NCBI GenBank assembly: GCA_020726505.1 | Contig: JAHLEZ010000007.1 | Span: 124,001 to 188,000, forward strand | DNA from: Leptodontidium sp. MPI-SDFR-AT-0119 | Lineage: Eukaryota; Ascomycota; Leotiomycetes; Helotiales; Leptodontidiaceae | Length of the DNA: 64,000 nucleotides | Direction of reading: 5' to 3' | Part shown: positions 28,291-37,690 of the stretch, piece by piece | Layout of the letters: every line of letters begins with the position of its first letter | How positions within the stretch are numbered: position 1 is the stretch's first letter | Notes under the pieces: model-generated | What the model was told of the DNA's origin: nothing | The model's database searches: none | Seen by the model: only the letters and a program-made list of their open reading frames with translations | Translations under genes and position numbers: made by a program

Positions 28291-31225
28291 GATATCAAAA
28301 TACAGGCAATCTTCACTGCAGCAGCTTGCCAGTACGCTAGCCAGCATTAACTTTGCGACAACTGTCACCTTGTCGAATGAGAGCCGACGGACGGTCCGGA
28401 AGTTGCTGAATTGGCTTGAGAATCGTCTCGAAAATGAATCGCTCCAAGACGTAAGCGCCCTTATCTATCTATCTATTGCTCGAGCCAGGTACCTTTTCCA
28501 GGCATAGATCGAACCACGCTCCTTCCTTCACGCCGCTTAGTCAGAAAGAAGGCTCTCGCTGATCTGTGAATACATCTTTAGGAGCTACGCATCGCAGGCC
28601 TCTCTTGGAACCCATGTGGACTTGGACTAGACGCCGTGTTTCCCAAACTTCACGGCCTGGGACGGCTCGTACAGCATCACCATGCCTGCCACGTATCCAA
28701 GAGCTCCGAGGCATCGGCTCGCTCTCTCGCCCTCTGGCTACAGGAACTCGTCAACTTGAGGCCAAGCCAGCGGAAATACCGACAGGCGCTGCTTGAGGAC
28801 ATCGAAAATTGTAACAAGGAACTAGAAACTGCTGCTGGGAGGACGAGAACGGCCATGACAAGCTTACAAAACCAGCAGCAAGACCGTCTGGCCAACGACG
28901 AGACGGCGAGCCCTGGTACTCCTTCATACACTCGTAGTCGCCAGCGAATCGATTCCTTGCATGCCCACCTGGCCGGTCTTTGGCTGTGCCAGTGCCATGA
29001 TCCCAGGTCCGAAGCCATGTTGCGACTGGCCTCCTTTGGACCTGACGCCAGGGACGATGACATGAAGCTGGAATTGTTATTCCGAGACGTCCGTGGTCAA
29101 GATAGTGATCCGTCTCCAGATTCTGACGCTCTCTGGCAGCAGGGCACTATCGTCCTTCGGGCGCCACAGGCGACAGTCCAGATTGTTGCACCTGGTTCAG
29201 CTATAAGCCGTCCCCGGGCCCGGTATGATGTCGGACGGGCTCAACAAGGAACGCCAGTCGACAATATGTGTACACTCCTCCGAGATTTACCACTTTATAA
29301 TTGCTTGATGCTCATTTTCGACCACGACCAACTATACGAACTGCGACCCCGCGAAGCTACAAACCAGGCTAGCGGCGTGTTCTCGCTCGCCAATCTTCTA
29401 CAATCTTACAACTTGAAGCTGATAGCGTTCTGCGAGAGGCTGACACTTTATGCTGTTTTGGCCAACATGTTGCTGCAGCTCCATGTTGGGCCGTGGCTCC
29501 GAAGAAATCTTCAGCCAGACAATATATATTTCCATTGTCTCGTCGATAGATCTCCCGTAAATATCAGGAAGCCCTTTCTCAAGACATCCGCTCTAGAAGC
29601 AGCAACGGCGTCTGAGGATGATACATCCGACGTACAGCATCCGTATCCCCCGATTCTAGCTTTAGGACTTCTAATCCTCCAGATAGAATGCTCAGTCCCT
29701 ATCAGAAGAGCCAGAGCGAGATACTTCCCAGAGCAGCTTGGTGACCACCTAGGCTCCTTTGTGAGCACCGCAGGCATGCTTCTGAGGAAGTCCTCCGGGC
29801 ATCGAGAAGACATGTTCATCGACGTGGTAGATGCATGCGTTAGACCTGCCACCTTCCCACCGGGACTCGACTATGATGACGAGTTCTTACACAATGAAGT
29901 CCACCGACTGATTATCTCCCCTCTCGAGACACTTTTGGATGTAGGGTATAAAGTGAACTTCCGAGACTTAGAAACAACTTTAGAGGAGGCTTGGCCACGC
30001 GGGGAGGAGTTTCGCAAAGAAGAACCTTCAAAGCCAACCATGAGGCACAGGGGGCAAAACGGAGATGTTCTCCAACCTGGTTACGATCCCCCTAAAATTG
30101 ACCCCGACCCAAAGTAAGCAATAGAAAACGGTTACATCTACCAAAGGCAACGCTAACACAGACCATCAGAGCACGATCTGCCGACAAATGGCTTAAAAGA
30201 CTTTACGGCGTCCATGATTTGCTCGACGCGAAGTGTGTTTCTGCAAAGTTGGAGCGTCATGTACGAGTCGCGATACTAGACTCAGGCGTGGATTTGCCCC
30301 TTCCGGTCTGCCAAGAAACCCATAAGCGAATCATACGGTTCAAAGATTACATTGATACAGAAAACAAAGCCCATATTGATACAGATGGCCATGGGACTCA
30401 CACTCTTGCGCTAGTCATGAAGGCTGCTCCCAAAGCTGATGTCTATGTGGCAAGGGTATTCCGAGGCAGGGGGGACAATGGAGCAATTTCAAAAAGAAAC
30501 TCGAAGGAAGTCAACACGGACATTGCAGAACGTGACTCAATGAAAATCCACCAGGGTATCGCACAGGTAGGAACACATCTTTAAGTTCAGTATGTTTTGC
30601 TTATTATTTGTAGGCGATTCGGGACGCTGTGGATGAGTGGCAGGTGGATATTGTCTCCATGTCATTTGGATTTGAACGAGCAATTCCTGAGATTGGCGAA
30701 GCTATACGGTACGCGGAGAGTAAAAACGTGGTACTATTTGCAGCTGCGAATAATAAGGGTGGCAACGAGGATGTTTGTTTTCCCGCCCGGCTCTCTCAAG
30801 TCATCTGTGTTCACGCTGCCGATGGGGAAGGAAATCTGGCATCATTTACTGCGAGCAGTGAGCAGGGGGAAGACAACTTTGCCGTTCTGGGAGAAAGGGT
30901 CATGTCAAATTGGCCTTTGGGTCTCGGGCAAGGCCACCAGGTCAGGAAGTCAGGGACATCATGTGCCACTCCCATCGCCGCTGGAATCGCTGCGATGGTG
31001 TTGTACTTTGCAAGGTCCTATCTGGCTCTGAATCCTGATAAATTCCCCGCTGATCGATTCCATTTCGAGAAGCTCAGTACGACCGAAGGCATGCGCAAAG
31101 TTTTTCATCGGATGGCGAAACCCAGAGGAGCGGGGTATAACTATGTTTGCCGATGGGAGGTTTTCGAATATACCCTAGACTCTACATTCATGGACTTGAT
31201 TTTGATGGATTTGAAAAAAATATGA
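28291..31225 (+). CDS. Subtilisin-like (S8) protease with N-terminal DUF7580-type region; HET-Q2-like; 5' end uncertain
   Basis: Intracellular-type serine protease, with no signal peptide seen. Supported exons: about 28291-28450, 28582-30113, 30170-30566 and 30614-31225, over 900 residues. The first exon stays open in the right frame without an ATG, so an earlier exon is missing from this model. Residues from 28582 to 30113 form a helical region with features of the fungal DUF7580 domain (LLQSYNLKLIAFCERLTLYAVLANMLLQLH, ILALGLLILQIE). The catalytic domain has VRVAILDSGVD (Asp), DTDGHGTHT (His), AAANNKGG (oxyanion Asn) and SGTSCATPIAAG (Ser), so it looks active. In Podospora, the subtilase HET-Q2 cleaves the gasdermin-like HET-Q1 to trigger incompatibility cell death. 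The gene next door, tail to tail, resembles that substrate. The partner assignment is inference from layout and family. Confidence 0.85.
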
Positions 31226-31303
31226 AGGAGCAGCAGCACTCAAACATCATCTTTTTCGTCCCACCGTGCACATACAGATAATGGTGTCAACGAATACAAT
31301 TCT

Positions 31304-32091
31304 TCAAGACATGGGTGCAGCTACGAGGCAGCCCACCTCACTCTCAGTATCAACAGCTAGATGAGTGACCATATCCGGGATATCGGCCAAGAACTCCCAG
31401 GCTTCGTTAACCTCCCAGGTCGCATCCAAAAGTTGATCCTCCTCAAGGATCTCCGTATCATCCGTGTGTAATAGAGCTCCTTGGGTGTAGTCCCTCTCTT
31501 GCACGGTGCCATTTTTCTTCAATCGGATTCTTGATAACTGGAACGCAAAAACACAATCCGATGAGGCTCTGAAAACGATTCGTTCGGAGCTTGATGCAGA
31601 TTCTCCTCTGCGGTGGCGGCGGGTAACCCTGAATCCCTTCGCGACCTTCAGGCCGTAATCATGTATACAGGAAGCCGGTATCGGTTGTCGCGAATGTAGC
31701 TTGTCACCATTGGGTTCTGGAGACATCTTCTGATGTATCGCTCTGTGGGTTGGAAGCACTCGGTTTCCAAAACATCGCATTTATAGACTTCGTCGGATTC
31801 GGTGTTATCAACGGCATTTGCGTGTGCGACGACCTGAAGGAACAATTCCAAAATAGACAGCTGAGGGGTCTGAGCTCTGATATCTTGTTCCCTGAGCCAT
31901 TCACCCGTTCTTTGCCAGCCCTCTTTGCGATCCCGAGATATTTCGCCAAGGGGAATCCCTACTTGTGCTCCAACGTTCAAAGATCGGTCAGGCCTCTTTA
32001 GGTCTATGATGATGCTACCTAGAGTTATGAGTCCTCCTGGAGCAAAGTCCCAGTTTGGCGGCAGGAAGTATGTCTTGAGCTGGCTTGTCAT
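31304..32091 (-). pseudogene. Fungal gasdermin-like (RCD-1/HET-Q1 family) gene with a 1-nt frameshift
   Basis: No intron. The 5' frame (32091 to 31651, 146 codons) starts MTSQLKTYFLPPNWDFAP and continues to PVYMIT, then meets a TGA at 31650-31648. The neighbouring frame is open from before that point to a stop at 31304 and begins with the matching continuation LKVAKGF, followed by VFAFQLSRIRLK and an acidic tail. Both pieces have landmarks I associate with RCD-1/HET-Q1, which are remote gasdermin homologues forming membrane pores after activation. Together they span about 260 residues, the family's usual size. No intron can bridge the break, so one base is missing near 31651-31655, either a true inactivating change or a read error. 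The gene is convergent with the subtilase, ends 78 nt apart, as in the known protease-gasdermin pairs. The family call is from memory and motif pattern, not a search. Confidence 0.65.
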
Positions 32092-34192: not shown

Positions 34193-37100
34193 ATGGTCCG
34201 ACTAGGAGCGCCAAAATGGGAAGAGCCACACAGGGGGAACTCGGTCGACCAGCGCGTATGCCAGAAGATGACGAGGGGTTCATGGCGTATGTTCTCGATG
34301 ACTTGTTGGCCGTCGAAAGAGCCAGCGAGGCCTTGCTTGACAGACGCGATGACTCAATTGGAAAAACTACTCCAATTGCGCAATAGAGATTTCTGGAGAG
34401 GAGAGCCCATCCCAACCGGATGTGCCTTAGAGCGATATATGTATGGCCGATCCGTGAAAAATGCCCAACCAACAATCATTGGATTTGTGTCCAGTCAGCG
34501 ATTTCGGCGCAACGCAAAGGAGATCCTCGAAGATTATGATTTCCAAATTGATCCTCGCGGGATAGGGATTGACTATTACAGCAGTCATCCTGTTTATTTC
34601 GGAGGGCAGGCTTTGGGATCTACTGCCAGCAAGAGCCGGTCAAGTGACCAGCCCACAGGATTGCCTCAATTCATTGGAACAGCAATCCAGGCTGGAAATA
34701 CAGCTTTCACCTTAGGAGGGCCTATCGTTGTCGATGACAAAATTGTTGGCTTGACTGTTGCGCATGCTATCGAGGCTGGTATTCTGGAGGAACAAGCATC
34801 CAAGGGTTAGTAAATGTATATTGAAAATATCAAGACTCCAGATAACCATTCCATCAGGTATCGAAACGTGGCCAGGTGTCATGGATATTCGGAAAACTGG
34901 AGGAGGTCGACTTGGTGTAACACACCAAATGCGGCATTTTGACACTCGGTTAGAGTCACCAGCCAAGGACCTGGACTGGGCAGTCATTCTCTTCGATAAA
35001 GATCAAAACCAACAGTTGGATTTACCTTCAATGGAAGTTAGCAGTTCGGACCCAACGACAGCCAAAGGGAAGGCAAAAGATACGGGCCCATCATCAAAAT
35101 TGAAGTACCCTGCTTTGCAAGAAGGATCCAATAAGCCCGGTGAATTGCATCCATTTTGGAGGCCAGCGAATTTCTGGGATGACCCTGAAGACTTCGATAG
35201 CAACGACAATGATGAGTATGAACGAGGTGCTGTCACCGAAAAACCCCCGCCCCCAAAAGAAACCCTCAGCCAGAAATTCAGACGAACACTTGCGATGATA
35301 CCAACGAACGACAGCCGCCATAATTACAAAACAGTATCCAGAGACCGCAAGGTAGTAAGAACAGCAAGTGGAAGTATGAGGGTGGCTAAGATACGCAGTA
35401 GAGCCCCATTGGGGACAAAAGGCATGGATTGGATCAACTACCCCGGGAAGATTGTACAGGAAGTCACGGAGAGCGCACATGTTGTTGTTTGTACCCGGAA
35501 CGGCACAGAAAGGGGTATGATTATGGGAGACTACTCACTTGTTGCTCTCCCAGGGAGACGACATTTCCAGAGAATGTGGGTGGTAAAAATGAACCGCAAT
35601 ATATGTGAGTATACCAGCTATCTGTAATTTTGGTCAGGTTGACTCATATCACACGTCCAGCACCTGGAGATTGTGGAAGTTGGGTGCTTGACTCGTCCCA
35701 GGAAAGTCTCTATGGCCACCTAATCGCGGGAAGGCAAGGGACCGGTGTTGCATATCTAGTGCTAGCACGCGACATCTTCGAGGACATCCGGATACGGTGC
35801 AAAGCTTCGGAGGTTCGACTGCCTACTCGACAGGAGCTCCAGGCATTTTCAAATCCTAGCCAAGGCAAAACTCGTCTGATTGAATTGATATCAGGGCCTT
35901 TCAAAATACCTGACCAAGATGGCGCTTCTGACAAGTCATCGTCATCATTGGATCTCATGCATGACGATCTTCCAGTTAACCCAGTACTATCGGCTATCCC
36001 CCCATTGGCCTTGAAGGCTTCGCCTTTGGTTTCTCTACCTGATCATGGATCAAAACGACTGCGGGCTTCAAGCACAGCCGCTTCGCCCACCCAGTCGTCC
36101 CTCAGGTCACAGCTAGGCGACGTCCAGTACGAGCCCTGGAACGACTATAGATATTTCGTCGCTGATAATGACCTGAATCAACTCATAACTGAAGAGTCTG
36201 TGTACCGGCATTTGAAGGAGAAAGACCTGATCTTGGACCAAAGGCCCCAACATAGAATCCACGAGTCGGCCCCTAAGCTCTTCGCTATTCTTGTTTCTGA
36301 AAAATTGGAACGCCACATCTTCAACTTCCTCGACGAAGGTATAAGCGACGATGATTTACCGTTTGTTCGGCTTTCTCTCACACACGGGGGAGGTGAGCAC
36401 AGCCAGTACCAGCTCTGCAGCAGGCGACATCCGGAGACAGTTATTAAATGCACTCTCGACTGGAACCAAATCGATATTCGACGTATTTGTCAGACACAGT
36501 GGAGTTTCCTGGCACCTGTCTTTGATTTTACAAGTAACGCTGAATGCTACGATTTTGATGACAACTGTGTTCTCCCATTCATCGAAGATAGCGAGAGCAG
36601 TAATCCCAGCACCGCAAAGAGAAGCGAAGGAGGCAGTACAAACTGTGTCCGGAAGGTCATTATTCATGCGGCTCACCTGAAAATTTCTGACAGGGGAATT
36701 CGTAACAAATCGGAGTTCATTGTGAAGCAGTTGCCCGATACCGTCAATGAGAAATACATGAGATCCGAAGTCGGGAAGTTTAAAGCGGTTTCGCATGAAC
36801 ATATGATCAGTGTCTTGGCTGCGTACTCCTGGAGGGGCCGGTGCCATTTAGTGTTCCCTTACGCAGAATCAAACTTGCGTGAATACTGGCAGATGACTCC
36901 TCTTCCACGACATTCCTCCGTAACAGTCTCCTGGATCATACGTCAATGCGCAGGAATTACCAATGCTCTGAAAAGAATTCATGAAGAGGGGATGCTCTCA
37001 CTTCACGGTTATCATGGGAACATAAAGCCCGAAAACATTTTTTGGTTCTCCCACAACTCGGATCCTGGACTCTTAGTCCTCGGCCACTTTGGAGAGGGGA

Positions 37101-37690
37101 AAGGCCCGAAGTCGATGATATCTTCGTCAATAGCTTCCATAGATCATCCAGGAGAATGGCCACCACAGGGAAGCATGAAGCAGCTTCGAAACTCTCTTCG
37201 CAACTCTCAAGCTTTCGATGTATGGAGCCTCGGTTGTGTATTCCTCGAGTTCTCTACATGGTTCATTGATGGCCGAGAGGGGATCTTGGAGCTCTTGTTA
37301 AAAGAGGTCCAAGACTTGTACGGCGATCCAAAGGGCCCTCGTTACAGAACCGAAGAAAAAATCCGCGTATGGGTGAAGGGCCTTATTAAGATAAGTCGAA
37401 GCTCACCTGTTATGAATGACTTCTTGGACATGATAGCTGGAGGTATGCTAGTGGGGGAACCCCAGCAACGAATGTCGGTGGTAGATGTCGACGAAGCTCT
37501 CCAAAAGATAGCCATGAAAGCCTCTCTTGGTGCCACAGGTGCAGTTGAACAGACCCAGCAAATGTACAATCCGAAATCCCGAGCTCCAACTATTTTTCAT
37601 AGATTCGGGGAACAGCCGCTTCCGACGCAAGCGAGCATGGGACCAGGACTTTCCGAACCGCCTCTCGGGCGTCAACATGAGCTGAGTTGA
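34193..37690 (+). CDS. Chymotrypsin-like protease domain fused to a pseudokinase domain (1110 aa)
   Basis: Four exons at 34193-34286, 34344-34805, 34858-35604 and 35661-37690 give 1110 residues with matching phases. The first intron (GTATGT...GACAG) decides the start MVRLGAPKW. The N-terminal part has a chymotrypsin-fold pattern: VGLTVAHAIEAG (His, about 171), DLDWAVILFD (Asp, about 225), and GDCGSWVLD (about 437), where Cys stands in place of the usual Ser, as in viral 3C-like enzymes. A disordered insertion lies between Asp and Cys. From about 760 to 1060 there is a kinase fold: IVKQLP (Lys), SEVGKF (Glu), but HGNIKPENIFW has Asn instead of the HRD Asp, and the DFG site reads HFG, so catalysis is unlikely. 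No signal peptide or membrane segment. Similar protease-plus-kinase-like fusions occur among fungal STAND/immune proteins; function unknown. Confidence 0.8.

Follow-up and report, generated by a model that had tools for sequence, protein, structure and literature searches.

The described systems closest to the locus studied here are HET-Q1/HET-Q2 of Podospora anserina and the Q2L-fGSDM (fungal gasdermin) two-gene clusters, in which genes for a subtilase (protease family S8) and a fungal gasdermin are at most 10 kb apart (reviewed in passages of PMC10989679, PMC10197012, and PMC12881547). As described in parts of PMC10989679, HET-Q2 is a protein of 388 residues that cuts HET-Q1 at F238, removing 40 residues; about 80% of fGSDM genes are near a protease gene, and about 60% of those proteases belong to S8. 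RCD-1 of Neurospora crassa is pore-domain-only and is activated by an antagonistic allele without cleavage (passages of PMC12547243 and PMC12881547). We studied a subtilase-gasdermin pair in a stretch of 64,000 nucleotides (nt) from Leptodontidium sp. MPI-SDFR-AT-0119 (the window, G000:C67:124001-188000), and all comparisons between loci were made within the one 77-Mb genome of 69 contigs to which it belongs, which carries fungal-type genes (for example, one with a fungal transcription factor domain). The pair is a Q2L protease with a fungal gasdermin, a new member of an already known system, and we consider it probable that the locus is a cell death cassette of the Q2L-fGSDM kind, in which a subtilase held by a pseudokinase would free the neighboring gasdermin.

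The protease gene occupies positions 28582-31222 of the forward strand, with its stop codon at 31223-31225, and splicing of two GT-AG introns gives 846 residues that join DUF7580 and S8 domains in one polypeptide. The large exon (28582-30113, an open frame) encodes a helical N-terminal part predicted in an AlphaFold2 (AF2) model and then DUF7580 (approximately 28933-29940; Pfam PF24476, E 7.9e-20). Intron 1 (30114-30169, GTAAGC...CATCAG) joins its frame to that of an S8 exon with the Asp (30279-30281) and His (30390-30392) motifs (30170-30566), and intron 2 (30567-30613, 47 nt), for which an intron of 47-60 nt was called at the equivalent site in several paralogues, joins the latter frame to that of an exon with the oxyanion Asn motif and the Ser (30959-30961) (30614-31225). 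Pfam assigns the Ser exon to PF00082 (Peptidase_S8, E 3.4e-14); the Asp/His exon alone matches the same family at E 0.006, below the cut-off. These results bear out an earlier note on this DNA, which had proposed a subtilase with Asp/His/Ser motifs and a DUF7580-type N terminus lying tail to tail with its neighbor, 78 nt of unstranded gap (31226-31303) separating the two stop codons. The 5′ end is less certain: no in-frame ATG was seen in the first exon, the 5′ limit proposed earlier (28291) is unsure, and 846 residues is a lower bound for the protein. No NB-ARC or NACHT domain scored over the cut-off, and Pfam returned DUF7580 alone on the large exon, upstream of which a further 5′ exon (beyond 28582) is possible.

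Identification of the neighboring gene needed a profile of its paralogues, because single-sequence searches assigned it to no family: Pfam returned none for either piece of the window gene or for five intact paralogues, and a PDB search with the window N-terminal piece alone gave E values of 0.25-1.8, below significance. A profile built from seven same-genome paralogues, with the window copy excluded, matched this N piece (31651-32091, reverse strand; 147 codons from the ATG at 32091, followed by TGA at 31650-31648) at E 1.7e-30. It also matched the reverse-strand frame 31307-31780, which holds the C piece (31307-31654, a different frame, with its stop at 31306-31304), at E 3.3e-11. Against the PDB, the same profile found RCD-1 (E 2.6e-24) and HET-Q1 (E 3.5e-18), and in a Foldseek search the best 14 matches of the N-piece model were all RCD-1, which shows the N-terminal domain to have the gasdermin fold. 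The earlier note had called the gene a gasdermin and had named absence of similarity to RCD-1 or HET-Q1 as grounds for abandoning the call; that similarity was found by both profile and structure comparison.

Protease-gasdermin pairing is a recurrent unit in this genome. We name the loci by contig: C67a (the window), C2a (L033), C43 (L034), C56 (L035), C25 (L036), C68 (L037), C5 (L038), C69a (L039), C28 (L040), C10 (L041), C67b (L042), C2b (L043), and C69b (L044). A search with gasdermin sequence only (E up to 1) returned the window and nine further places, three of the nine weaker than 0.005, and an S8 match lay within 10 kb at 8/9 of these further places (P ~1e-14 under random placement; the S8 place at C28 came from a different search than the S8 family search). 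Adding C67b, C2b, and C69b gives a subtilase within 10 kb at 12/13 gasdermin loci, a count that is biased because these three came to light through neighboring proteases or other searches. Of the 12 pairs, eight run tail to tail, three lie in tandem, and one is head to head. Set against the published figures, these counts fit the known pattern. Across nine pairs, leaving out C67b and C28 (broken), C25 (no protease), and C69b (divergent), gasdermin distances correlate with protease distances (Mantel r 0.55, p 0.015), a test used alone because the partner trees were unresolved, with no starred branch. C2a is the nearest relative of the window for both partners, its protease being 52-53% identical to that of the window in the Ser exon. 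With 48 S8 loci in the genome, most of them not known to adjoin a gasdermin, the two window genes might be chance neighbors and the subtilase might have another role, but the frequency of S8 genes beside independently found gasdermins and the correlated partner distances make this exceedingly improbable.

Several loci depart from the common arrangement. The C25 gasdermin (L036:4871-5760, forward strand) stands on a contig without a subtilase match and shows an early apparent break in a homopolymer; a CHAT protease was considered as its partner and rejected, since none of the 16 CHAT places in the genome is on that contig. At C69b (L044:5306-6334, reverse strand), the gene beside a subtilase with DUF7580 upstream resembles gasdermins but has diverged strongly (profile E 1.8e-4); it matched no PDB gasdermin and nothing else in the genome, and we count it only as a weak gasdermin. 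C2b (L043:5512-6408, reverse strand; G000:C2:1580511-1581407) is a clear RCD-1 relative (PDB RCD-1-1, E 6.5e-48) lying tail to tail with a subtilase immediately preceded by DUF7580. It extends 50 residues past the end of the RCD-1 match, where a KGATF motif stands, and since Neurospora RCD-1 is pore-domain-only and uncleaved, it looks like a protease-controlled RCD-1 relative.

The domain preceding the window subtilase is likely a pseudokinase. Structure searches with the DUF7580 model, which is weak and matched mostly over the C-lobe, returned kinases in 50/50 of the matches listed, the kinase-matching part corresponding to model residues 255-457 (29344-29952, forward strand). Read by eye, the window sequence has RRN at the HRD place and KPF at the DFG place, consistent with a kinase-like fold without both catalytic aspartates. 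Across DUF7580 rows (also read by eye), the DFG Asp is missing in 7/7 and the HRD Asp is retained in 2/7 (C2a and C2b). The alignment underlying the model is shallow and imperfect, one of its rows (L033:6612-7142, a more 5′ exon) being misplaced. Genome-wide, DUF7580 was found at 27 places, 25 of them over the cut-off, and seven of the 27 are at protease-gasdermin pairs; it is over the cut-off at 7/12 pairs, and its union with S8 in one polypeptide was demonstrated by splicing for one of the 12, the window pair. At C68, TPR repeats lie in the reading frame that immediately precedes the subtilase. Approximately 3.5 kb from the window gasdermin, a 693-residue frame (35609-37687, forward strand) carries a kinase domain (PF00069, E 4.6e-10) in which, by eye, HGN and HFG stand where HRD and DFG are expected, and appears to be another degenerate kinase.

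A shared motif and a following tail suggest where a protease could act on these gasdermins. The solved chain of HET-Q1 ends in ...DWTGKVLF, of which ...GKVL aligns with ...KGALL in the paralogue profile. Among the 13 rows examined, a K/Q-G-x-x-hydrophobic motif, chosen after inspecting the rows, is present in C2a (KGALY), C56 (KGGVF), C68 (KGDLM), C25 (KGAFL), C5 (KGAMF), the window (QGALL), C10 (KGDSF), C67b (KGPFL), and C2b (KGATF), fits poorly in C69a (QRATM) and C28 (RRAVF), and was not seen in C43 and C69b. The motif is followed by a tail of approximately 40-70 residues; across the 13 rows, 8-21 acidic and 0-9 basic residues occur among the last 45. In the window, the candidate cleavage region is the Leu-His codon pair at 31466-31471 (reverse strand), where the HET-Q1 Leu falls on the Leu column and its last Phe on the His column. 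The candidate inhibitory tail comprises 54 residues (31307-31468, reverse strand), with 11 acidic and no basic residues among the last 45. The last Phe of HET-Q1 thus lies one column past the hydrophobic residue of the motif, which weakens the claim that this is the cleavage site.

From these features we infer a series of steps for an intact cassette. The N-terminal helical part and the DUF7580 pseudokinase would hold a cytosolic subtilase silent until a trigger is sensed, whereupon the subtilase would cut the adjacent gasdermin at or beside the K/Q-G-x-x-hydrophobic motif. The cut would remove the acidic tail of approximately 40-70 residues, which may act as a brake, and the freed gasdermin domain would form membrane pores.

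The window gasdermin itself is broken in this assembly. The earlier note had read 31304-32091 as a single gene of approximately 260 residues, a reading that does not survive closer inspection: the interval is 788 nt, which is not divisible by three, the ATG frame stops at TGA, and the remainder of the gene is in another frame. The break falls at 31640-31660 (reverse strand), inside a conserved strand motif. We used frameshift-aware protein-to-DNA alignment with GT-AG introns allowed, rerun with introns made cheap and frame events dear. One frame event was found against each of 4/4 paralogue queries (C2a, C5, C68, and C56), and the best three of five window alignments each contain one event and no stop codon. 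An intron spanning the break was considered and rejected, since the event persists in the two best alignments with cheap introns. In the best alignments of 12 gasdermin loci, seven have no frame event (C2a, C56, C68, C5, C69a, C43, and C2b), three have one (the window, C10, and C25), and two have several together with stops (C67b and C28); making introns cheap accounts for part of the C67b events, but over a shorter alignment.

One possibility, which has much in its favor though we hold it to be somewhat short of probable, is that the break arose by error in sequencing or assembly, in which case the gene would be unbroken in the organism and the pair ordinary except for a short hairpin region (below). 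The event is single, the printed alignments contain no stop, and coding is conserved on both sides. Apparent breaks elsewhere also fall where sequencing errors may: that of C25 lies inside a 7-nt homopolymer and does not appear with every query, and that of C10 lies near a run of four. At the window, by contrast, the longest nucleotide run within 13 nt of the break is two, and the partner protease has no frame event in its DUF7580 and S8 parts, the region covered by the window test downstream of the helical N-terminal part. Several breaks and stops at C28, and less surely at C67b, also indicate that real decay seems to occur in the family. The protease control is itself imperfect. Like the window protease, that of C10 is free of events in these parts, and those of C67b and C28 carry events; the C69b protease is ambiguous, and for the C56, C5, and C2b proteases, when introns are cheap, what one query gives as an event or stop is explained with another query by an intron. 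Under the same settings the C67b protease keeps its event with one query and the C28 protease aligns only in part. On balance, this control leans toward real damage in the gasdermin without proving it.

A second defect is one that a single-base error could not produce. Gasdermin subunits have two membrane hairpins, beta3-5 and beta7-8 (passages of PMC12547243). Between the GLKxA[KR]G-like and DFVFAY-like motifs, 7/9 copies have 48-52 residues, as against 25 in the window and 20 in C43 (C10 was unmeasurable, and C67b, C28, and C69b stand outside this list of nine). The short window stretch (25 codons, 31559-31633, reverse strand) corresponds to the second hairpin region as placed by position in the RCD-1 alignment, and the window gasdermin therefore appears to lack approximately 25 residues of that hairpin and to depart from the two-hairpin arrangement. 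The C43 gasdermin (L034:5371-6153, reverse strand) has one open frame and, like the window copy, appears to be missing approximately 30 residues of the second-hairpin region. Because the window gasdermin is both frame-broken and without this segment, the working pair suggested earlier does not follow in this assembly, and, with the protease intact, this copy of the cassette is probably unable to cause death on its own.

If the damage is real, the locus could be a dying relic in which the gasdermin was lost first and a protease left without a substrate is drifting to follow. Passages of PMC10197012 describe birth-and-death evolution of fGSDMs, and L040 (G000:C28:509500-519400) and, less surely, L042 (G000:C67:2466500-2476400) are apparently decayed cassettes that combine broken gasdermins with protease frame events (at C67b, partly explained by introns over a shorter alignment). 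We regard this as rather doubtful for the window, where the protease has intact catalytic motifs and two intact introns, all 846 codons are open, and the Ser exon has the identity to the C2a protease given above.

Alternatively, the window could be a haplotype with a live protease and a dead executioner: its own gasdermin being disarmed, fusion with a strain carrying an intact gasdermin would lead to death, an incompatibility like that of HET-Q1/HET-Q2. An event-free protease stands beside a frame-broken gasdermin both here and at C10, and the "pseudogenization" model set out in passages of PMC10197012 gives het-Q1/het-Q2 as an example. That model, however, expects a constitutively active sensor, and the window protease retains its sensor part where HET-Q2 is a protein of only 388 residues; this and the restriction to one genome leave the proposal unlikely. 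It is likewise improbable, if conceivable, that the window is a pseudokinase-subtilase/gasdermin intermediate of the sort that the pseudogenization model allows, with C2b then making the tail-less Neurospora RCD-1 an end point of that route.

Whatever the origin of the break, the cassette reading places this locus among described death systems with clear likenesses and differences. The window gasdermin is in the same family as HET-Q1 by profile and shares with it a motif within one residue of the solved chain end, followed by a tail, but differs in its broken frame and missing second-hairpin segment. The protease is likened to HET-Q2 by its S8 domain and by layout, yet it is far longer, with at least 846 residues and a DUF7580 pseudokinase. 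With RCD-1 the gasdermin shares family and fold, whereas a tail and a partner protease are present at the window locus. By analogy only, the locus also resembles death proteins gated by pseudokinases, such as MLKL, in which a noncatalytic kinase-fold domain is joined to a death module; unlike in these, the window pseudokinase is fused to a protease whose target would be a separately encoded pore-forming protein.

To the known system we add a likely identification of the sensor domain at 7/12 pairs as a pseudokinase, a candidate cleavage region, and, in this assembly, a broken executioner beside an unbroken protease. The identity of the sensor part of gasdermin-controlling proteases and the way in which immune systems give rise to incompatibility are presented as open questions in passages of the reviews. 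Should the damage to the executioner be real, this locus would be a natural test case for an immune cassette turning into an incompatibility locus.
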